Shown one piece after another: positions 47,175-57,596 of a stretch of DNA of 57,596 bases. Location: positions 1 through 57,596 of the forward strand of contig CAIWMU010000013.1 of assembly GCA_903913865.1 (NCBI GenBank). The letters are read 5' to 3'. This DNA is from an uncultured Verrucomicrobia subdivision 3 bacterium. Its GTDB lineage: Bacteria > Verrucomicrobiota > Verrucomicrobiia > Limisphaerales > UBA8199. A model generated the notes under the pieces. It saw nothing but the letters and a program-made list of their open reading frames with translations. It ran no database searches and was not told where the DNA came from. Each line of letters opens with the position of its first letter. Position 1 is the stretch's first letter. The translations under genes and the position numbers were made by a program.

Positions 47175-49544
47175 TCAGTGCCGCACGGAGCGGGCACCGA
47201 AGATACCTCCAGCCATGTTGTCGGGATGAGCTTGAAGCTTCACCACAACGGATTCCCGTCCTTTTGTGAGGTTCTCCGGAATGGGGAGGACGACGTCGAA
47301 AAACTGACCGGGCTTGTTGTTCTGCAAGGTCACCGTGGTTAGCTTCACGTTGTCTGCCAGGATGTCGAATGTGCGCTTTCCGCCGTCCTCGCCCCAGAAA
47401 GTGAGTTGCACATCGGAGGGCTTATCGGCATCAACCTTCAGTTTGAAGCTGAACCATCCACCATCGGTGGCATGCCTCCACTTGCGGCCGAAAGCCTCCC
47501 CGGCGGCAGTTTTCTCGCCCTGCAGGTCGTGATCCCGTTCCGGCTGCATCTCGCCGATGCGGAGGTTGTCGATGGTGCGGGCGGCAAGGGCGAGTTCCTC
47601 CTCCTGGCGGGTGCGGATTTCGGTCTCGCGCTGCGACCATTCTGCGGGGGTGTATTTGTCGATGTAAACGGTGTAACGATGGTCCTGGAGTGCGTGGAAT
47701 GGCACGAGTTTGAAGTCCTGGGGATGCCCTATGCGAGAGCTTGCGAAGTTGCCCGGCTCACCCGGCACCGGCTGCAGCATGTGCGTGACATCCGCATCTG
47801 AACTGACAATGGCCGGGACGTAAAAGGGCAGGTCGGCCCCAAGATCGTCAATGCCGCCGAGTTCGGCAGCCAAAAGAGTGGGGCCGTTGAAGAACGCGAT
47901 GCGGTTGGGGTTGTCCGGCATGGCCTCGGTGCGAAGGCCCATGGGGAACTCGACATCAATGTGGTCCCCCTTCTTCCACTTCCGCTTGAGGGAGACATAG
48001 CTCGAGGGGGCAGATGTGGTCTTTTCGAGGCGGCCGTTGACCCGGACGGAAAAGCCCTTCGTGGCCCAGTAGGGATGGCGGATCAACACCGTGAATTCGG
48101 ACGATTTCTGGAGGTTCAGAGTGATATGGCTGGAATCACTATTGGGCCACCCTGTTTCCTGACGAAGCTTCAGGCCTCGCTCTGGCCAGTTGAGGTCCGA
48201 GGGGATGAAGAGGTTCACCCAGATATCCTGTGCGTTATGAAAGTAGATGGCCTCCCCGTATTTGACGTGGTTTTCCATGCCGGTGCCTACACAGCAGGTA
48301 AAACCGTCATCCAGTGACTGGTATTCCTTGAAGTGCCCCGGGTGGAGGGAGAGGTAATAAATGACCCGTCCGTCCGGATGCTGGGTGGCCCGGATGTGGT
48401 TGAGGAGGGCCCGCTCGTAGAAATCGGCAACGGCCGCGTTCGGGTTCCATCCAAAGACGTGGCGGGTCAGTTTGAGCATGTTGTAGACGTTGCACGACTC
48501 CGTGGTCATGGTGCTCAGGCGGTCATTCAACTTGTCGGCAGGCCCGAAGTGCTCATGGTCGGAGTGGCCACCGGTCACGTAGGAGTGGTGATTCACAACA
48601 CGATCCCAGAAGAAGCTGGCGGTCTCACGGTCCGATTCCATACCGGCGAGTTCGTAGCGGGTTGCGAGGCCTATCAATTTGGGAATCTGGGTATTGCCGT
48701 GCTTGCCCGGGAGGATGTCCTCCCCGTGAGAAAGTGGATCAAGGATGGCGCGGTGGTGGAAACGGCGCGAGAGGGTCAGGTAGCGGACGTCCCCGGTATC
48801 GGCATAGAGATCGGCGAGAACTTCGTTCATTCCGCCATGCTCTGCGGCCAGAACGGCCTGCATCTGGTTCTCGTTCAGGCCGCTCAGTGTTTTTTCGAAC
48901 CAGTCGCCGAGCTTTCTTGAGATTTCGAGTGCCTGATTGTTGCCGCAAAGGCGGTAGGCGTCCCGCAGTCCTGCCAGAAGCTTGTGGAGAGTATAGTTTG
49001 GAACCCAGATGCCGTTAAGATCAAACCCGCTGGACTTGATCTTTCCGGATGCGACCTCCTCGTAAGTTTTCATGCCGTTCGGGATGGCTGCAACGTAGCC
49101 GTTCCCATTTGCGGCCTGGCAGACTGCCAGTTCCTTCACGAAATAGTTGACCCGCTCCAACAGCCGGGACTCGCCGGTTGCCGCGTAGGCAATGGCGCAA
49201 CCGCTGAGGTAGTGTCCACCTGTGTGACCTGAGACACCCTGGGATTCCCATCCGCCATACTGCTTTGCCTTGGGCTCAAGTCCTGCCTCCTTACGAAAGT
49301 TGGCTAAAAAGCGGTCCGGTTCAAGGTCGAGCAGATACTTGACCCCGATATCCTGGCCCGCCTTGAATGGGCTGACCAGAAGGCGGACATCTGACAAGGG
49401 AAACGTGGCAGCTTTTGGGGGGGCTGCCGGCTTGATTTTTGCCGGGACGGGACTGGAGCTGAGGGATTCAGCCCCGGCGCCAATAAGGCCGAGCCAGAGG
49501 CCAAATGCGGAACCCAGAAGGATGCTAACTTTTGATTTCACCAT
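47175..49544 (-). CDS. Exported beta-L-arabinofuranosidase-like GH127 (DUF1680) protein
   Basis: Predicted zinc-dependent retaining glycosidase using a cysteine nucleophile, 789 aa. A signal peptide (cleavage near GAGAES) precedes an (alpha/alpha)6 barrel. The family metal/nucleophile set is visible: Glu349 and Cys351 in TTESCNVYNM, and Cys417-Cys418 in FTCCVGTGMENH; Glu331 in DHEHFG is a candidate acid/base. The C-terminal part has beta-sandwich modules (HATDGGWFSFKLKVD). Beta-L-arabinofuranose from plant hydroxyproline-rich glycoproteins or pectin is the classic substrate, but many DUF1680 relatives differ. It is probably transcribed together with the Tat-DegT gene, and is divergent from GH36. 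Confidence 0.92.
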   Translation of the reverse strand: MVKSKVSILLGSAFGLWLGLIGAGAESLSSSPVPAKIKPAAPPKAATFPLSDVRLLVSPFKAGQDIGVKYLLDLEPDRFLANFRKEAGLEPKAKQYGGWESQGVSGHTGGHYLSGCAIAYAATGESRLLERVNYFVKELAVCQAANGNGYVAAIPNGMKTYEEVASGKIKSSGFDLNGIWVPNYTLHKLLAGLRDAYRLCGNNQALEISRKLGDWFEKTLSGLNENQMQAVLAAEHGGMNEVLADLYADTGDVRYLTLSRRFHHRAILDPLSHGEDILPGKHGNTQIPKLIGLATRYELAGMESDRETASFFWDRVVNHHSYVTGGHSDHEHFGPADKLNDRLSTMTTESCNVYNMLKLTRHVFGWNPNAAVADFYERALLNHIRATQHPDGRVIYYLSLHPGHFKEYQSLDDGFTCCVGTGMENHVKYGEAIYFHNAQDIWVNLFIPSDLNWPERGLKLRQETGWPNSDSSHITLNLQKSSEFTVLIRHPYWATKGFSVRVNGRLEKTTSAPSSYVSLKRKWKKGDHIDVEFPMGLRTEAMPDNPNRIAFFNGPTLLAAELGGIDDLGADLPFYVPAIVSSDADVTHMLQPVPGEPGNFASSRIGHPQDFKLVPFHALQDHRYTVYIDKYTPAEWSQRETEIRTRQEEELALAARTIDNLRIGEMQPERDHDLQGEKTAAGEAFGRKWRHATDGGWFSFKLKVDADKPSDVQLTFWGEDGGKRTFDILADNVKLTTVTLQNNKPGQFFDVVLPIPENLTKGRESVVVKLQAHPDNMAGGIFGARSVRH

Positions 49545-49564
49545 GGCTTAATTGTCATCACTCG

Positions 49565-49592
49565 CCGGGAAACTGCAATCCTGTTTTCCCGG
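49565..49592. repeat. 8-bp-arm perfect inverted repeat between GH127 and GH36 genes
   Basis: CCGGGAAA at 49565-49572 and TTTCCCGG at 49585-49592, 12-base spacer. It lies 21 bases upstream of the GH127 start. It may be a shared operator for the two divergent genes, or a leader hairpin of the GH127 transcript. There is no T-run on either side, so it is not a terminator. Confidence 0.6.
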
Positions 49593-49928
49593 TTGAACGA
49601 TTCCAAATCGAAATGGAGCGAAACCCTGAATACCGGTATTCTGTCCGGGGGCAGGTTGGTGGGAATTTCATCCGAGACCCCTGCCGTTTCGGGCGTTGAG
49701 GGAAGCATAACAAGCGGAATGGGTTTCGATCTGGTTCATGGCGCGGATGTGTTGGTGGATAACTGTAGAAAGCGGATGCGCTCCTTGCCATGGGGTGGGG
49801 CAATGGATACCTTGAACGTACATTCACAAACCGATACCCAAATGCATCCCAATCAAACCACCAGCTGTGAGGGGGATCATCCCCAAGGATTAAGCACTTC
49901 CACGCGTTTTAACCTGTCTGCCTTGTTG
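49593..49928 (+). other. Region before the GH36 start, open frame without coding character
   Basis: The GH36 frame is open from a TTG at 49593, with ATGs at 49803 and 49842, but the encoded residues have no signal or domain resemblance. I treat it as 5' untranslated or promoter sequence. If 49842 is the true start, the protein gains 29 residues before the signal core. No clear promoter hexamers were found. Confidence 0.45.
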
Positions 49929-52475
49929 ATGGGCAGGTCGTGGGTCATGCCCGCGCTTCTGGCCGGGGCCTGTCTTTTGTCCGCGCAAGCGGGTGCGGCA
50001 CCCACCACAGAACGGGACCTGCCCGTGGAGTTTGCAGATGATGCGGTCATGGCATCTCCGCAGGAGGTGCGCCAGTTGCATGATTGGGTTGCAAAGTCGT
50101 TTGGTCTGGCGAAATCCTCCGGTGGCGCCGACCGGATCGGCCTCGAAGTGAGGCGGCAGGATTACAATGTGCTGCGCTTCGGGCAGTCCTGCATGGAAAC
50201 GCCCCTTCGCATTGGATCCAAGTCGTTCCAGCACGGGCTGGGGACGCATGCCCAGAGCGAAATCGTGGTGGCCATCCCCAAGGGTGCGATCACGTTCAAG
50301 TGCTTTGTGGGGGTCGATAACAATTATGACACGCGGGGGACGAGCGGGTCTGTCCAGTTCTCAGTGGGGTTCGATGGCACCCAAGTTTACCAGAGCGGGG
50401 TTAGGACGGGGGCGGATGAACCGGTTCCTGTCGATATCGATGTGCCCTGGGGTGCGCGGGAGATGCTCCTGAAGGTGACGGATGGGGGGAATGGACCGGC
50501 ATGTGACCAGGCGGATTGGGCCGATGCAAAATTCAAGATCAACGGCGGGAAGGATCGGTGGCTGGATGTAAATCAGTCGAACGGGTTCCTCCAGGATGGG
50601 GGGGCTCCGTTTTCGTTCGTTTATGGTGGGGCCAGTTCCGCGGACCTGCTGAAGGTCTGGAAGCGCTCCGTGGAGACGCGCGACCTGCCGGACCGGGTTG
50701 AGCAGGATATCCGATGGCAGGATCCGAAAACGGGATTGTCGGTGACCGCTGTGGTGAAGAGTTTCAAGCGTTATCCTGCAGTCGATTGGTTGTTGTATTT
50801 TGAAAATGGAGGGGAGCAGGATTCCCCGATTCTTGAGAACGTTCAGACCGCCGATTTTTCACTGACAACGGGTGCGGCGAGGAATGTCGGGTCGTTGCAC
50901 CAATTAAGGGGTGATTCATGCGGCGAGGAGAGTTTCACTCCCTTCACGACATCCCTGCCTTCCCCGAAGCGCATTCGACTGGCTCCCACGGCCGGAAGAC
51001 CCTCAGCAGTGAGCGCCTTTCCGTTTTTCGATCTGGAGTATGAGGGCAAGGGGTTTGTCGCCGCTGTGGGATGGTCCGGTCAGTGGGCAGCCTCCTTTGA
51101 CCGCACCGAGCGTGGCCCCACCCGTTTTCAGGTTGGCATGGAACGGACCCATCTGGTTCTGCATCCAGGTGAGAAGATCCGGACGCCCCGGGTTTTGGTG
51201 ATGCCCTGGCAGGGGGAGCGGGGTTTGGCACTGAACCGGTTCCGCCGACTGATGCTGTTCCACTATGTCCCGCAGAATCAGGGAAAACCGGTGCTTCTGC
51301 CGGTGGCCCTGCAGTGTTTTGATCGCTATGTGGGAACCCGCAAGGAATGGGCCACCGAGGCCGGTCAGATCGCAGCTGTGCGGTCGGGCAAGGATCTGGG
51401 TGTGGATACGCATTGGCTGGACGCAGCCTGGTTTCCGGTCGGCTTTCCAAACGGGGTGGGCAGCTGGTATGCCGATCCGAAGTCATTCCCGAACGGGCTG
51501 AAGCCGGTAAGCGATGAATGCCATCGCATGGGGATGAAATTCGTCCTTTGGTTTGAGCCGGAGCGCGTGGCAGCCGGTTCCCAGCTGGCGCGTGAACATC
51601 CGGAATTCGTCATGGGTGGGGAGAAGGGGGGGCTCTTCAAGTTGAACGACCCTGCTGCGCGAAGGCACCTCACCGATCTGCTCTCAAAACGGATCTCTGA
51701 ATACGGGATCGACATCTACCGCAACGACTTCAACATCGATCCCCTGGGCTTCTGGCAGCAGGCCGACTCAGCGGACCGGCAGGGCATGACCGAGATCCGG
51801 TATGTGGAGGGACATTATGCCATGTGGGATGAACTTCTGGCCCGTCACAAGGGGTTGGTCATCGACAACTGTGCGAGCGGAGGGCGGCGGATTGATCTGG
51901 AAACCTGCTCAAGGTCGGTGCCACTGTGGCGCAGTGATACGAGTTGCTCCCCGGGACATCCGGAGTGGAACCAATTGCAGACGGCCGGGCTTTCACAATA
52001 CATCCCGCTGCATACGGCCTGTGTCTGGATTCCTGAGGCTTACGATGTGCGGAGTGCGGGCACCGGTGGATTGATCGCCCAGATGGATTATCTCGATCCC
52101 AAGTTTCCCAAATCAGCAGCGGCAGCCATGATTGCTGAAATTCGCGAGAATCAAAAGTATCACTATGGCGATTTCTATCCCCTTTCCAGCCCTTCGATCT
52201 CCCCGGATCAATTCGTGGCCTACCAGTTCCATCGGCCTGATTTGAACGCCGGCATCGTCCTCGGGTTCCGGCATGCACAGTGCGGTTTTGTAGGAGTCAC
52301 CGTGGGCCTCCACGGCTTGAATCCGAAGGAGAAGTACATGGTCGAAGTGATCGATGATAAACTCGTTACAGTGCGCAGGAAGGCCACAGGCAGGGAGTTG
52401 CTCGATGGGTTGGACATCCGCGCCGGGAAGCCCGGTTCGAGCGTGGTCGTGCGATATCGACCGGTTGGCACATGA
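49929..52475 (+). CDS. Exported alpha-galactosidase, GH36/melibiase, with NPCBM module
   Basis: Predicted to release alpha-galactose or a related sugar outside the cytoplasm, 848 aa from the ATG at 49929. That start gives MGRSWVMPALLAGACLLSAQAGAA, in effect a complete signal peptide. An NPCBM module (about 65-205) contains FQHGLGTHAQS, almost the same motif as in the GH27 enzyme upstream. The GH36 barrel follows with WFEPERVA, nucleophile Asp in IYRNDFNIDP and acid/base region CASGGRRIDLET...WRSDTSC. The usual KxD pattern of the nucleophile loop is RND here. C-terminal beta-sandwich residues close the protein. It is divergent from GH127 across a marked inverted repeat. Confidence 0.9.
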   Translation: MGRSWVMPALLAGACLLSAQAGAAPTTERDLPVEFADDAVMASPQEVRQLHDWVAKSFGLAKSSGGADRIGLEVRRQDYNVLRFGQSCMETPLRIGSKSFQHGLGTHAQSEIVVAIPKGAITFKCFVGVDNNYDTRGTSGSVQFSVGFDGTQVYQSGVRTGADEPVPVDIDVPWGAREMLLKVTDGGNGPACDQADWADAKFKINGGKDRWLDVNQSNGFLQDGGAPFSFVYGGASSADLLKVWKRSVETRDLPDRVEQDIRWQDPKTGLSVTAVVKSFKRYPAVDWLLYFENGGEQDSPILENVQTADFSLTTGAARNVGSLHQLRGDSCGEESFTPFTTSLPSPKRIRLAPTAGRPSAVSAFPFFDLEYEGKGFVAAVGWSGQWAASFDRTERGPTRFQVGMERTHLVLHPGEKIRTPRVLVMPWQGERGLALNRFRRLMLFHYVPQNQGKPVLLPVALQCFDRYVGTRKEWATEAGQIAAVRSGKDLGVDTHWLDAAWFPVGFPNGVGSWYADPKSFPNGLKPVSDECHRMGMKFVLWFEPERVAAGSQLAREHPEFVMGGEKGGLFKLNDPAARRHLTDLLSKRISEYGIDIYRNDFNIDPLGFWQQADSADRQGMTEIRYVEGHYAMWDELLARHKGLVIDNCASGGRRIDLETCSRSVPLWRSDTSCSPGHPEWNQLQTAGLSQYIPLHTACVWIPEAYDVRSAGTGGLIAQMDYLDPKFPKSAAAAMIAEIRENQKYHYGDFYPLSSPSISPDQFVAYQFHRPDLNAGIVLGFRHAQCGFVGVTVGLHGLNPKEKYMVEVIDDKLVTVRRKATGRELLDGLDIRAGKPGSSVVVRYRPVGT

Positions 52476-52567: not shown

Positions 52568-55234
52568 TCATTCATCCCCCAGCAGGTTCTCCAGGGGAAC
52601 TGGCCTTCTCGAGGGGGCGAGTAGGGGAGGTGGGTATCCGAGGCCTCCCTGCCAATAGCAAAGGCCGCCATCTGCTGACAGGGAGATCACCCCTTCGTAG
52701 GTGGTGGTCATTGCGAGCCAATCATTGTGCCTTCCCAAGCGGGTTGGATTGGATCCGCCCATTTGAAAGATAGAGCCCATACCATTCTGATAGTTGCGCC
52801 ACAGCCACAGTGATCCGTCCGTTTTCAAGGCGGAGAGAAAGCCCCAGTTGCCGCAAACAACCGCCCAGTCCTTGTCTGCCTGCAGTCGGCTCGGTTTCGT
52901 GGGGTTTTGATGCACATTCGGCCAGAATTGCCAGCACCATAGCGTCCCGTCTGCACGGATTCCCACTTCACAACCCATGGTGGAGGTAACGCATCGCCAC
53001 GTCGTGCGATCGAAATCAGGGAACCGCACAAGGAACAGGCCCGGCTCCAGTTCAACACTCCTTTTGTTGGATTCAGCCCTGTCAGTATGGAGCATCCAGG
53101 CCTCACCATTGGTTTTCCAGAGGTAAATAAACCGGTCGCTCGCAACGGATGTGGCCCAATCCGAGGAGATGCCGAGTTGCCGGGGTTGTCTGCTTGCGAG
53201 TGCCGGACCCTTGTCGGCTGTCTGGCTGTTTGTTCCCCAGCGCCAGAGAGATCCATCGGTGCTCAGGAGCACAACAGAATGGAGCCCGATCTGCCGGGCA
53301 ATTTTGCTCCAGTTGGTTGTGTTGCCGAACTGACTGAGTGCTGGGAAGTCAGAGTCTCCCAGATCCCTTTTCTGTGTTTGTGATTTCGATGCTGCCTTCT
53401 CGGAAAACCATAATGACCCGTCTGACCGGATGGCCACGAGTTTGGTGGGCAACACCAGGGCATCACTCCAGTTGGATCCGCCCATGAGCTGATGGTGTGC
53501 GTTCATCCAGTAAGTGACTCCATCCGACCCCTCCAACCGGACAGATTTTATTCTGGCGCCCGCTGCTTGAACACTCAGTCGTGTTGCGATCACTCTTCCA
53601 TCCGGCAGGAGGGAAACGCAGGAGTTGGCAACATTTTCCATCTTGATCGCGGGCGGTTCGGAATGCTTCAACCGCACCGGCCCGCGGGGTGGTTCCATTT
53701 CCATGCAAAGTTCCCAGGCTCGTTGGTAAAGGCTGAAAGTGATGATGCCGATGATTCCGAGTGCCGAGAGGATCGTCAGGAGGTTGCGACGCCAGAGGGC
53801 GAAATCAGGAGCGAGTCGGCCGAAGTTGTGGCAAGTCAGGGCAAGGACTGTGAGGATCAGGATCGGCCATGCAATCCAATGGAAGATGCGTCCCTGCCAG
53901 AGGGGGATGTTGATCAGGTTGTGGATGGCTGGTCCGGTGGCAACAAGAAAGAAGAGACAGGCCGCGAATCCAACCGCAAGTCCGAGGGCTTGCAGCAGGT
54001 TGCGGGAGAGGCTGGATGCGTAGAATGCCAGTAATGAAAGGGCCAAAAGACAGCAGAAGATGACGGCGAAGGTGGTTCCGGACTCGAAGATGCCTATGGC
54101 GGCCGGGGCACCCAGAACCACACCGAAGGCTTCAACGACCACCAGCAGCAGGAAGCTTAGAAGGGCTCCGAGGCAGATGACAGAAAGGAGTTTGATCAGG
54201 AATTGGATCCGTCTTCTGACGGGCATCCCGAGGTGTGCCTCCATGGTTCCCAGCCTCCTCTCTTCAGCAATGCTCAGGCTGCCTACGAGCAGGGGGACAA
54301 AGAGCCATATGAATGGGTAGAAATTCAGAATTCCCTCCAACATCCCTTCGATTTGATGTCCCCGCAGCAGCCAGCGGATGAGGACCACCCCCACATGGAG
54401 CAGAGCCAACGCTGCGATCCCTGCAAGACTCACCTGGTGAAAGTGGAGTTCCTTCGAAATCAGTGCCCGGACGGGGCGGCAGGGGCGGTCAGCAGCCCGG
54501 GAGGGCTGTCCTGCGACCATACGGGGGGTATTGAACGCTGTATGTGTGTGCCCCGGCGTAATCGGGCTTTCACCGCTGCTACTACCGGACTTCCTTGTGG
54601 GGAACAGGTCTGACAGGGTGACTGCATCCCCGGTCCACATGACTTCCTGTGCCCGGAGGAACAGCCACCAGGCCAGAAGAAAGCCGGCGATGGCATACAC
54701 AACAAGGCCGGCGCAAACCCAGGGCAGGGGAGTTTCCATTCGCAGCGCGGCGATGAGGACAGCGATGCTGGCCGGGAGGAGAATTGTGACAAGGAATGCC
54801 CCGGCAACCTGACGGAGCAGCAGAGTGCTCCAGAGTCCTCCAGAAAGCAGCGCGAGCGCCATTGGAACTCCCAGCAGGGTTGTTTCGAGAGTATCCGAGG
54901 GCGTTGTTCCCGTGAAACCGTAAATGGACCAGGAGGCCCACCAAACCGCCAATACCACGGCGGAGGCTGCGGCAAGAACGCGGACTTTGGTCCACCAGAT
55001 GCGGGATCTTGCGATGGGCTGGGCGAGCAGAAGCGGAAAGGTTGAAAGGGCCATCTCACGCCCGAACGATCCGAGTGCCATCAGGGCGATTCCGAATGCA
55101 AACGGGTAGAGAGTCATTTCCGACGATGTCCATGGATTCCGTGGTAGGAACCACACCGGAACGATCGCCAGGATGAGTGCTGCGAGGGTGGCGGGGAGAA
55201 GAAGGCGTAGCTCTTTTAGCGTTAGGGTGTTCAT
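52568..55234 (-). CDS. ABC-2-type permease fused to an RCC1-like beta-propeller
   Basis: Membrane half of an ABC transporter, 888 aa. Two related six-helix modules occupy about 5-195 and 257-470; their repeat is visible in GREMALSTFPLLLAQPIARS (58-77) and EERRLGTMEAHLGMPVRRR. A thirteenth helix (484-503) preceded by WRRN would put the remaining 385 residues outside the membrane. That region has six repeats of about 50 residues, each with an [ND]W and then a [D/N]G-x-LW-x-W motif (604, 659, 708, 761, 805, 854), the pattern of RCC1-type propellers. The gene follows the ATPase by 3 bases and is controlled with it by the gntR gene. Substrate unknown; drug, lipid or envelope-stress export is typical for YtrA-type systems. 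Confidence 0.8.
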   Translation of the reverse strand: MNTLTLKELRLLLPATLAALILAIVPVWFLPRNPWTSSEMTLYPFAFGIALMALGSFGREMALSTFPLLLAQPIARSRIWWTKVRVLAAASAVVLAVWWASWSIYGFTGTTPSDTLETTLLGVPMALALLSGGLWSTLLLRQVAGAFLVTILLPASIAVLIAALRMETPLPWVCAGLVVYAIAGFLLAWWLFLRAQEVMWTGDAVTLSDLFPTRKSGSSSGESPITPGHTHTAFNTPRMVAGQPSRAADRPCRPVRALISKELHFHQVSLAGIAALALLHVGVVLIRWLLRGHQIEGMLEGILNFYPFIWLFVPLLVGSLSIAEERRLGTMEAHLGMPVRRRIQFLIKLLSVICLGALLSFLLLVVVEAFGVVLGAPAAIGIFESGTTFAVIFCCLLALSLLAFYASSLSRNLLQALGLAVGFAACLFFLVATGPAIHNLINIPLWQGRIFHWIAWPILILTVLALTCHNFGRLAPDFALWRRNLLTILSALGIIGIITFSLYQRAWELCMEMEPPRGPVRLKHSEPPAIKMENVANSCVSLLPDGRVIATRLSVQAAGARIKSVRLEGSDGVTYWMNAHHQLMGGSNWSDALVLPTKLVAIRSDGSLWFSEKAASKSQTQKRDLGDSDFPALSQFGNTTNWSKIARQIGLHSVVLLSTDGSLWRWGTNSQTADKGPALASRQPRQLGISSDWATSVASDRFIYLWKTNGEAWMLHTDRAESNKRSVELEPGLFLVRFPDFDRTTWRCVTSTMGCEVGIRADGTLWCWQFWPNVHQNPTKPSRLQADKDWAVVCGNWGFLSALKTDGSLWLWRNYQNGMGSIFQMGGSNPTRLGRHNDWLAMTTTYEGVISLSADGGLCYWQGGLGYPPPLLAPSRRPVPLENLLGDE

Positions 55235-55237
55235 GGT

Positions 55238-56140
55238 TCAAGGCTTGCTCAGGGTTCTGGCGGCAACGAACACCTCCTCAAGGCTCAGTGACACACACTT
55301 CATTTCCACAGGGTTCAAGGTCCTGAGTCGCTCCAGCAGTTCGGTGCTGTTTCCATTGGACAGTATCTCCAGTTCACGACCGGATTGGCGCACCTGCACT
55401 GCTCCGGGTAGGTTGAGCGATGCCGGGGGTTCGGTGAAACGGGCCTGAATCTTTTGGAACCGCTGACGGGCATCATCGGCCTGCATGGTCATGATCTCAC
55501 GACCCTGATCGATGATGGTGAACTGGTCGATGAGCCCCTCAAATTCCGAGATCAGATGTGTGGAAACGAAGACCGTCCGCTCGTCGGGTGCGCTGGCATG
55601 GTAGGCTCCTATTACCGCCTGGATGAACTCGCGACGGACGATTGGATCCAGTCCGGAGGTGGGTTCGTCCAGCAGCAGCAGCTCCGGTTCGGGACAGACC
55701 GCGCCTATCAGGGCGAGTTGTGTCTTCTGGCCTTTGGAGAGGTGGGTTGCTTTCTGGCCTGGATCGAGTCTGAACCGCTCCAGAAGATCCGCCTCCATCC
55801 CGCTGTTCCAGTGGCTGCGGAAGGATGCCAGATACCGCAGTGTTTCACCCACTGTCATCCAGGGGTAAAACGCCACGGTGTCCGGCACATACGAGAGGCG
55901 CGACTTCACCCCCACCTCATCCCGTTGCGGGTCGAGCCCGAAGACCCGGACGGCGCCCGAGGTTGGTTGCAGCAAGTTCAGGAGGCACTTGATCGTGGTG
56001 GTCTTTCCAGCCCCATTGCGGCCGAAAAATCCGTAACATCGCCCGCGTGCAACCTTCAGGCTGAGCCCGTTGACGGCATCCAACTTGCCGTAGCTGCGGA
56101 CGAGATTGTTGATTTCCAGGACTGGTGTGTCGGTGTTCAT
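55238..56140 (-). CDS. ABC transporter ATP-binding protein
   Basis: Cytoplasmic ATPase partner of the adjacent permease, 300 aa. Walker A GRNGAGKTT at 40-48, signature LSKGQ at 134-138 (a relaxed form of LSGGQ), Walker B LLLLDEP at 154-160 and the D-loop SGLDP are present. The C-terminal 70 residues (RFQKIQARFTEPPASL...LSLEEVFVA) are the accessory domain seen in ABC-2 exporter ATPases such as YtrB and CcmA-like proteins. It starts 5 bases after gntR and ends 3 bases before the permease, so the three are translated as a tight operon. Confidence 0.92.
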   Translation of the reverse strand: MNTDTPVLEINNLVRSYGKLDAVNGLSLKVARGRCYGFFGRNGAGKTTTIKCLLNLLQPTSGAVRVFGLDPQRDEVGVKSRLSYVPDTVAFYPWMTVGETLRYLASFRSHWNSGMEADLLERFRLDPGQKATHLSKGQKTQLALIGAVCPEPELLLLDEPTSGLDPIVRREFIQAVIGAYHASAPDERTVFVSTHLISEFEGLIDQFTIIDQGREIMTMQADDARQRFQKIQARFTEPPASLNLPGAVQVRQSGRELEILSNGNSTELLERLRTLNPVEMKCVSLSLEEVFVAARTLSKP

Positions 56141-56145
56141 GGGGG

Positions 56146-56562
56146 TTATCTCCTTGGGTTGTCGTTGCTGGCCTGTGCGGGCTTGAGTTCGAAATGGTCG
56201 GCACGTTCCTCAACGGTCTTTAAAAACGCGGCCCGATCAATCTGCAGGTGATGGGCCATCACCACCGCCTCATCGATTTCGGCGATGAGAAGCCGGTTAC
56301 GTTCCTGCTGCGAAAAGGGGGTTGCGGTTCCCTTCAGGAAGAATCCCTTTCCGGGAACCGTTTCAATGATGCCCTGAGCTTCGAGCTCCGAGTAGGCCTT
56401 GGCGATGGTATTACGGTTGACGCGAAGTTCCTCAGCGAGGGGGCGGAGGGCGGGAAGGGGGTCCCCCTCCCGGAGACGGCCCGAAGCAGCGGCGTAGCGG
56501 ATCTGATCGGCCAGTTGAAGGTAAACTGGCTTTCCGGCCTGAAAATCGATTTGGAAGATCAT
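56146..56562 (-). CDS. GntR-family regulator, YtrA type
   Basis: Short winged helix-turn-helix repressor of 138 aa. The DNA-binding domain spans about 10-78 (PVYLQLADQIRYAAASGRL, LRPLAEELRVNRNTIAKAYSELEAQGIIETVPGKGFF). The tail of about 55 residues is a helical dimer domain, too short for a metabolite pocket, which is the YtrA subgroup pattern. That group usually controls the ABC operon it heads. A perfect inverted repeat over its own -10 box supports autorepression. Confidence 0.92.
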   Translation of the reverse strand: MIFQIDFQAGKPVYLQLADQIRYAAASGRLREGDPLPALRPLAEELRVNRNTIAKAYSELEAQGIIETVPGKGFFLKGTATPFSQQERNRLLIAEIDEAVVMAHHLQIDRAAFLKTVEERADHFELKPAQASNDNPRR

Positions 56563-56569
56563 GGCGATT

Positions 56570-56609
56570 ACTGTCCTATGACACTAGGACAGTGGAATGC
56601 ATCTGTCAA
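56570..56609 (-). promoter_or_regulatory. Promoter and palindromic operator of the gntR-ABC operon
   Basis: On the minus strand, -35 TTGACA (56609-56604), 17-base spacer, -10 TAGTGT (56586-56581). A perfect inverted repeat with 9-base arms ACTGTCCTA (56570-56578) and TAGGACAGT (56585-56593), spacer 6, covers the -10 box and ends 7 bases before the gntR ATG. The layout fits autorepression by the encoded GntR protein. Confidence 0.75.
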
Positions 56610-56617
56610 CAGATTAT

Positions 56618-56642
56618 TAGGGCTATGCACTTGACGCTTGTT
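56618..56642 (+). repeat. Left terminal inverted repeat of the IS1595-type element
   Basis: 25 bases starting TAGGGCTATGCACTT, an exact reverse complement of 57572-57596. Its inner two bases overlap the transposase stop codon (TTA at 56641-56643). Confidence 0.9.
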
Positions 56643-57549
56643 AATCTTTGCTCGGTTCGATGTCCAGAACAGGTTCCAAATGGACTGCCTGCGTGATCAA
56701 CCGGTAAAAGAGCAACCCGCGGGACTTCGATGTCCGGCGGTTAAATCGAAAAGTGTATTCATCCAAATAGTAGTCCAGGTGCGAAGGCTGAACCGCTCCC
56801 TGGTGAGTTCCCAGAAGCCAGCGCTTCAAGAGAGATGCGACTCGGTTGGCCAAGGGCAAGAGGTTGTTACCCAGATCCGGAGTTTGGCGAATGACCTGGT
56901 GCCGGTAGCCCAATCCCAGCAGTCCGTTGTAACCACCCCAGCCATCCGTATGGACTTCCGATCCAGGCTCAACCATTTCACCTACCGCCGATTCGAGACT
57001 CTCGCCAGCGGCGTTGGCAACCCGCCTCAAGCGAATTCGGCCGATCCCTTTTTCTGCCTGTTGTGCCGCAATGACGACCAACGTCTTGCCCGCAGCCCCA
57101 CGGCCCCGCTTTCCCGACCGCTCTCCTCCAATAAAGATTTCATCCACCTCGACTACCCCGGCAAGCCGATCACGTCCGGGACGGACCATGGCCAGACGCA
57201 GTTTGTGGAGCCACTTCCACGCGGTGTGATAGCTGCCCAACCCTAAAACGCGTTGCAGACCCAACGCACTCACACCGTTTTTCTGACTGGTCACATACCA
57301 CATGGCTTCAAACCAAAGGCGAAGTGGTTTGTGGGTGTCGTGAAACAAGGTGCCCGCAGTCTCCGAAACCTGGTAACCACACTGGATGCACCAGAACTTT
57401 GCGCGCCCCATCCTCCAGGCCTTGGTGGTTTGGCAGCGCGGGCAAACAAATCCGTCCGGCCACCGCTGCTTGGCCATGTAGTCTCGGCACGCTTGTTCCG
57501 TCGCAAACCACTCGCGGAATTCGATAATCGTCTGCGGATATGCTTCCAC
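56641..57549 (-). CDS. IS1595-family transposase
   Basis: DDE-type transposase, 302 aa from the GTG at 57549, which gives the family-like start VEAYPQTIIEFREWFA; a TTG at 57576 inside the terminal repeat is the alternative. An N-terminal zinc ribbon (CPRC, later CIQC at about 45-70) is followed by the catalytic core with VEVDEIFIGG (first Asp), HTDGWGGYN (second Asp) and the late FNRR region. No frameshift or stop interrupts it, so the element may be active. Transcription points toward the gntR operon. Confidence 0.92.
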   Translation of the reverse strand: MEAYPQTIIEFREWFATEQACRDYMAKQRWPDGFVCPRCQTTKAWRMGRAKFWCIQCGYQVSETAGTLFHDTHKPLRLWFEAMWYVTSQKNGVSALGLQRVLGLGSYHTAWKWLHKLRLAMVRPGRDRLAGVVEVDEIFIGGERSGKRGRGAAGKTLVVIAAQQAEKGIGRIRLRRVANAAGESLESAVGEMVEPGSEVHTDGWGGYNGLLGLGYRHQVIRQTPDLGNNLLPLANRVASLLKRWLLGTHQGAVQPSHLDYYLDEYTFRFNRRTSKSRGLLFYRLITQAVHLEPVLDIEPSKD

Positions 57550-57571
57550 AGCCGAATTCTGTCGAAAAAAC

Positions 57572-57596
57572 AACAAGCGTCAAGTGCATAGCCCTA
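57572..57596 (-). repeat. Right terminal inverted repeat of the IS1595-type element
   Basis: 25 bases, exact reverse complement of the left end, finishing at the window boundary. A TTG in frame with the transposase gene lies just inside it at 57574-57576. Confidence 0.9.

Follow-up and report, generated by a model that had tools for sequence, protein, structure and literature searches.

An ABC-2 permease fused to an RCC1-like propeller in a putatively self-regulated three-gene operon of the Limisphaerales

Exporters of double-membraned bacteria often have separate periplasmic proteins at their exit. A fusion of an ABC-2 permease to an M1 aminopeptidase is known as an annotation, and our literature search found no paper on it. 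The Pmt exporter of Staphylococcus aureus is encoded by more than one ATPase gene and more than one permease gene. According to the portion of PMC5080381 on which we draw, the Pmt operon is headed by PmtR, a small GntR repressor of the YtrA subfamily; PmtR binds over the promoter, represses this operon and almost nothing else, and is displaced by the exported peptides. The YtrGABCDEF system of Bacillus subtilis, as presented in part of PMC12772383, combines the GntR repressor YtrA and ABC transporter genes with an extracytoplasmic component, which in the model given there is a separate lipoprotein, YtrF, alongside two ATPases. Propellers of the RCC1/BLIP-II type have been described as a group (PMC9218822, in the section consulted). 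Here we describe an operon in which a GntR regulator and an ABC ATPase are encoded with an ABC-2 permease that is fused to a propeller of the RCC1-like kind. The operon was found in a stretch of 57,596 nucleotides, referred to herein as the window, from an uncultured Verrucomicrobia subdivision 3 bacterium of the order Limisphaerales (GenBank assembly GCA_903913865.1, contig CAIWMU010000013.1).

The three genes lie on the minus strand, as do all operon features for which window coordinates are given below, in the order gntR (56146-56562), ATPase (55238-56140) and permease-propeller (52568-55234), with spacers of 5 and 3 bases. The first encodes a small YtrA-like regulator of 138 amino acids with a DNA-binding domain at residues 14-75 (Pfam GntR, 3.3e-16); Pfam matched no effector domain in this protein, and in the PDB it is matched best by GntR chains of 121-134 amino acids (3by6, 4ham, 3neu and 6sbs). 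These features suggest the YtrA subfamily, whose members are very small and have a single short helical region besides the DNA-binding domain. The ATPase (300 amino acids; Pfam ABC_tran, 6.7e-25) has intact Walker A (GRNGAGKT), signature (LSKGQ) and Walker B (LLLLDE) motifs. A small, YtrA-like candidate repressor of the GntR family at the head of a predicted ABC exporter operon, with a putative binding site over the promoter and a probable reach of little more than its own operon, has its parallel in Pmt, which differs in having no propeller. The Pmt equivalog scores were not reached, as the window GntR protein obtained 51.5 of 200 bits against NCBIfam PmtR and the ATPase 145.4 of 350 bits against PmtA; the match of the ATPase to NCBIfam drrA was also below its cut-off. 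Relative to YtrGABCDEF, the predicted extracytoplasmic part is fused to the permease rather than encoded separately. The preliminary description had been unable to match this three-gene set to a described system, and among the matches listed from the open-access literature we likewise found no paper describing an ABC-2/RCC1-like fusion. The parts are of known kinds, and the combination seems to be undescribed.

The fused gene begins with ATG and forms one frame of 888 amino acids with no internal stops. A hydropathy profile (window 19, with adjacent peaks merged by the author) gave 13 segments, starting near residues 12, 40, 84, 120, 146, 173, 268, 305, 349, 388, 413, 450 and 485, in keeping with the two six-helix ABC-2 modules and thirteenth helix of the preliminary description. 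The first half spans residues 1-208 (54611-55234) and the second residues 254-476 (53807-54475). Pfam ABC2_membrane_3 matched residues 296-500 above its cut-off (6.7e-9). For comparisons across the family we used an alignment of 45 proteins from 42 sources, the window protein included, from which truncated or broken frames, one duplicate (L032) and later-fetched loci were left out. A profile comparison based on these 45 members found the two halves to be homologous (96.7% probability, P 5.3e-10); the strongest Pfam matches fall within the second half, and the first is recognised through its homology to the second. Two six-helix ABC-2 domains with a partner ATPase carrying intact Walker and signature motifs are sequence features of the ABC-2 (type V) exporters, to which the system probably belongs. 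Similarity to GldF-type permeases is weak (residues 257-429; 1.6e-5, 25 of 288.5 bits), and the window protein differs from these in having both halves in one polypeptide, followed by helix 13 and the propeller. A PDB sequence search with the membrane part gave no match at E 1.

Helix 13 (residues 485-503; 53726-53782) is predicted to run from inside to outside and to anchor the propeller. Net charge before this helix is +1 to +5 in all 45 members of the alignment, and after it the charge is zero or negative in 43 of the 45. By the positive-inside rule the propeller is thus predicted to sit outside the cytoplasmic membrane, as had been proposed from the hydropathy and the WRRN stretch preceding helix 13 in the window protein alone. 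The full-length structure prediction, made from two sequences, was unusable (pLDDT 35.8), so its location over the exporter exit is an inferred one. The predicted layout, with a C-terminal extracytoplasmic domain, is that of the ABC-2/M1 aminopeptidase fusion, which has an enzyme domain where the window protein has its propeller.

The propeller occupies residues from about 530 to 877 (52604-53647) and is RCC1-like and seven-bladed. Seven DG..W blade motifs have their glycines at residues 546, 606, 661, 710, 763, 807 and 856; each glycine is conserved in 42-45 of the 45 members, with an aromatic residue at +3 in 35-45. The RCC1-like character of the W-rich repeats noted at the outset has been borne out, while the count of six was discarded for seven on the basis of motif conservation in the 45 members. 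An eighth candidate blade, at residue 572, is present in just 6 of the 45. Profile evidence from Pfam, clear for the ABC-2 part, was weaker for this domain: in the window protein WD40_RLD matched residues 642-813 (5.1e-4) with 19.9 of 150 bits and RCC1_2 obtained 8.3 of 22 bits. As these scores are below the gathering scores of the Pfam RCC1 families, we call the domain RCC1-like only. At E 0.01 across the 45 members, WD40_RLD matched 33 (best 3.9e-31), RCC1_2 matched 13 and RCC1 matched 3. When a profile of the propeller domain was compared with the PDB, the RCC1 domain of HERC1 (1.1e-16) and UVR8 (3.9e-14) were retrieved; the sequence of the window protein's propeller by itself gave only a chance-level match (E 0.85). 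A structure model of the propeller, built from two sequences, was of modest confidence (pLDDT 52.4). In a Foldseek search of this model RCC1 and UVR8 took the top rows at TM about 0.45, within a range of 0.36-0.50 for all matches, so structure prediction upheld the propeller at that modest confidence. The blade motif, the number of blades and the best sequence-profile matches are therefore shared with the propellers of RCC1, UVR8 and HERC1/2, from which the window propeller differs in being fused to a membrane permease and in falling under the Pfam cut-offs. In VIA-align the PLL lectins of Photorhabdus came out on top (Z 15.7, rmsd 3.9, 280 aligned), above RCC1-type rows at Z about 14. This ranking is a weak hint that the modelled propeller might bind glycans; no lectin of this kind occurs among the 32 sequence-profile matches of the domain.

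An assembly error or a missed stop between two genes, raised in the preliminary description as a possible source of the fusion, was ruled out by its recurrence in dozens of other genomes. A family profile at E 1e-60 or better matched 71 of 293 genomes of the order, and 60 of the 293 (about a fifth) gave a single alignment over permease and propeller, defined as running from model position 230 or below to at least 600 (57 of the 60 reach 750); G082 and G214, where the two parts are adjacent matches in one frame, were excluded from this count. By hand count the 60 genomes fall into 20 of the family codes, with uneven sampling (genus g52 alone contributes 20 of them). The window genome, about 95% complete in 267 contigs, has a single match to the whole fused protein. 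Class and phylum samples of 384 and 387 genomes were searched at E 1e-30 with at most two candidates scored per genome, the profile search being confined to this phylum. Among the matches listed from these samples none outside the order was a fusion: those covering both parts all came from the same order, and those from elsewhere covered the propeller only. A scan of genome contigs, sensitive to close relatives only, yielded one locus (L031), and a plasmid search gave nothing beyond RCC1-like stretches, which lie in four Hymenobacter records and in no case reach 80% query coverage.

The neighbourhood of the fused gene is conserved as well. We fetched 58 loci with a fused frame. Both gntR and the ATPase gene are present within 800 bases upstream in 45 of them; in 7 others the ATPase gene is present and the contig ends before gntR, and 5 lie at a contig end. 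In the remaining locus, L063, the permease frame is broken and still follows gntR and the ATPase gene. Tandem pairs of fused permeases occur in four loci; in L042, L044 and L069 the pair follows one ATPase gene and one gntR, and the contig of L059 starts within the first permease.

Eight bases before the gntR start lies an operator-like palindrome of 22 bases, CTGTCCTAGTGTCATAGGACAG (56571-56592), and a putative -35 element, TTGACA, is found at 56604-56609; a matching -10 element would fall inside the palindrome. An IS1595-family element (56618-57596), bounded by perfect 23-base terminal inverted repeats and with its transposase encoded on the minus strand at 56641-57576, terminates 8 bases upstream of this putative -35, its outer repeat being the exact contig end, and it could influence expression of the operon. 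Across the family the palindrome has the consensus CTGTCMTA-N6-TAKGACAG over the promoter region. Allowing 3 of 14 mismatches, it was present in all 42 fused operons and in 14 of 16 others, against 24 of 5800 shuffled upstream regions, a count that is descriptive as the consensus was drawn from the same sequences. These 58 operons exclude L032 (duplicate), L060 (wrong upstream cut), L106-L111 and loci with weak or absent gntR. The 14 comprise 5 of the 6 operons without a tail on the permease and 9 of the 10 whose permease ends in another tail; the two exceptions at this tolerance are L093 and L101, where no palindrome precedes gntR. In 45 of the 58 operons TTGAC begins 16-19 bases ahead of the palindrome. 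When whole genomes were scanned with at most one mismatch, the window genome had one site, and a single site was found in 7 of 8 genomes (the window genome and seven chosen by the author). The eighth, G192, from the genus of the window, carries two such operons and has two sites, each operon being preceded by one. A reversed-pattern control gave no site in any of the 8. With a single palindrome in seven of the eight genomes, the putative GntR repressor probably serves this operon alone. This and the palindrome's presence in all 42 fused operons put the proposed self-regulated three-gene unit of the preliminary description on firmer ground than was claimed for it.

We put at about even the chance that the operon encodes a self-regulated exporter or flippase with the propeller as an extracytoplasmic receptor or docking module; ABC-2 permeases may also have roles other than transport. 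The three genes would then make up one self-contained, autorepressed export module. The repressor would occupy its own promoter until the exported compound, or a stress linked to it, frees the promoter, and the pump would be produced on demand only. Such logic has its nearest described counterparts in PmtR, displaced by the peptides that its operon exports, and in YtrA of Bacillus. The ATPase would dimerise on the twelve-helix core and power the export or flipping of an amphiphilic compound such as an antimicrobial, a lipid or a peptide. Helix 13 would hold the propeller at the exit. There, as a receptor or adaptor, the propeller could accept the cargo, respond to a ligand or bind a partner in the envelope, much as the preliminary description had suggested.

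The YtrA-like repressor and its one palindrome per genome in seven of the eight scanned genomes would also suit a pump of the envelope-stress or antibiotic response like YtrGABCDEF, with the propeller sensing an extracellular signal and gating the pump accordingly rather than accepting cargo, and inhibitors of the lipid II cycle are inducers of the ytr operon (PMC12772383, in the part cited above). We regard this as possible and rather unlikely, as the GntR protein acts in the cytoplasm with no visible signal path to it from the propeller, and the neighbourhoods and families examined contain no link to antibiotics.

The exporter reading with a receptor propeller can also be set against operons that manage without one. 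The GntR-ATPase-permease set occurs without a propeller in L071, L073, L074, L101-L103 and L106, and in L072, where the gntR side is cut off; in L091-L100 the permease carries other tails. Pfam, run on 6 of these 10 tails, found nothing beyond ABC-2 except DUF1707 in L091 (E 0.027). L093 (3457-6474), which lacks the conserved palindrome, has a tail of about 480 residues with a repeated stretch discernible by eye and no Pfam match. Because propeller-free operons keep the same palindrome, this three-gene chassis does not need the propeller, and the variety of chassis, some propeller-free and some with another tail, suggests that the tail confers specificity and can be exchanged. Propeller-free operons with the same regulator and ATPase also speak for a propeller that is a structural lid or a dimerisation part and binds no ligand; we consider this improbable, given that a juxtamembrane R.WE motif has been preserved, as have the seven blade motifs, at a mean pairwise identity of only about 31% in the domain.

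How the propeller came to the permease was approached through an unrooted tree of the ATPases (64 rows), in which 46 of the 47 propeller operons lie together to one side of a single branch with a support of 93 (not starred). The distribution needs two changes, against a mean of 15.1 for shuffled labels, and none of 500 shuffles was equally low. Distances between propellers correlate with those between permeases at 0.75 (best of 999 permutations, 0.27). These sequence comparisons fit one main gain of the propeller followed by joint inheritance; in an unrooted tree a loss may take the place of the gain. The exception in the tree is L087 (344-3270), at a contig end, where a fused permease is followed by an ATPase that groups with those of propeller-free operons, and this locus may represent a second, independent fusion.

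Flanking genes indicated no substrate. In 74 loci, with operon genes and frames antisense to them excluded, the largest shared family was found in 7, all from genus g52; it is a heptosyltransferase-II-like gene adjoining the operon and belongs to a group of LPS genes. In the vicinity of the operon, 5 loci have an lpxK homologue and 3 have a gene for an LpxL-like acyltransferase, these families being named from L041 only. In L041 (1729-4924) genes for LpxK, the LpxL-like acyltransferase and heptosyltransferase II lie directly upstream on the same strand. Beside the operon in the window (47175-52475) are two further genes, one resembling those for GH127 beta-L-arabinofuranosidases and the other melibiase-like with an NPCBM domain. 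That the module moves an envelope lipid or an LPS-related molecule, as these LPS genes might suggest, has little probability, since the heptosyltransferase-II-like neighbour is confined to one genus, the LpxL-like match is under its cut-offs and the window neighbours are of the GH127 and melibiase-like kinds.

Returning to the self-regulated exporter with an extracytoplasmic receptor or docking module, we propose more tentatively that the propeller is an exchangeable receptor within an ABC-2 exporter, which would choose the cargo or its recipient, and that three genes with a single operator would form a new, lineage-specific module for sensing and export. Here permease and propeller share one polypeptide and a common inheritance, and their operon comes with a repressor for which a single binding site is likely, so it would offer a compact system for studying how an ABC-2 exporter recognises its cargo and hands it over. 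It would also provide one group of RCC1-like propellers in bacteria with a role.
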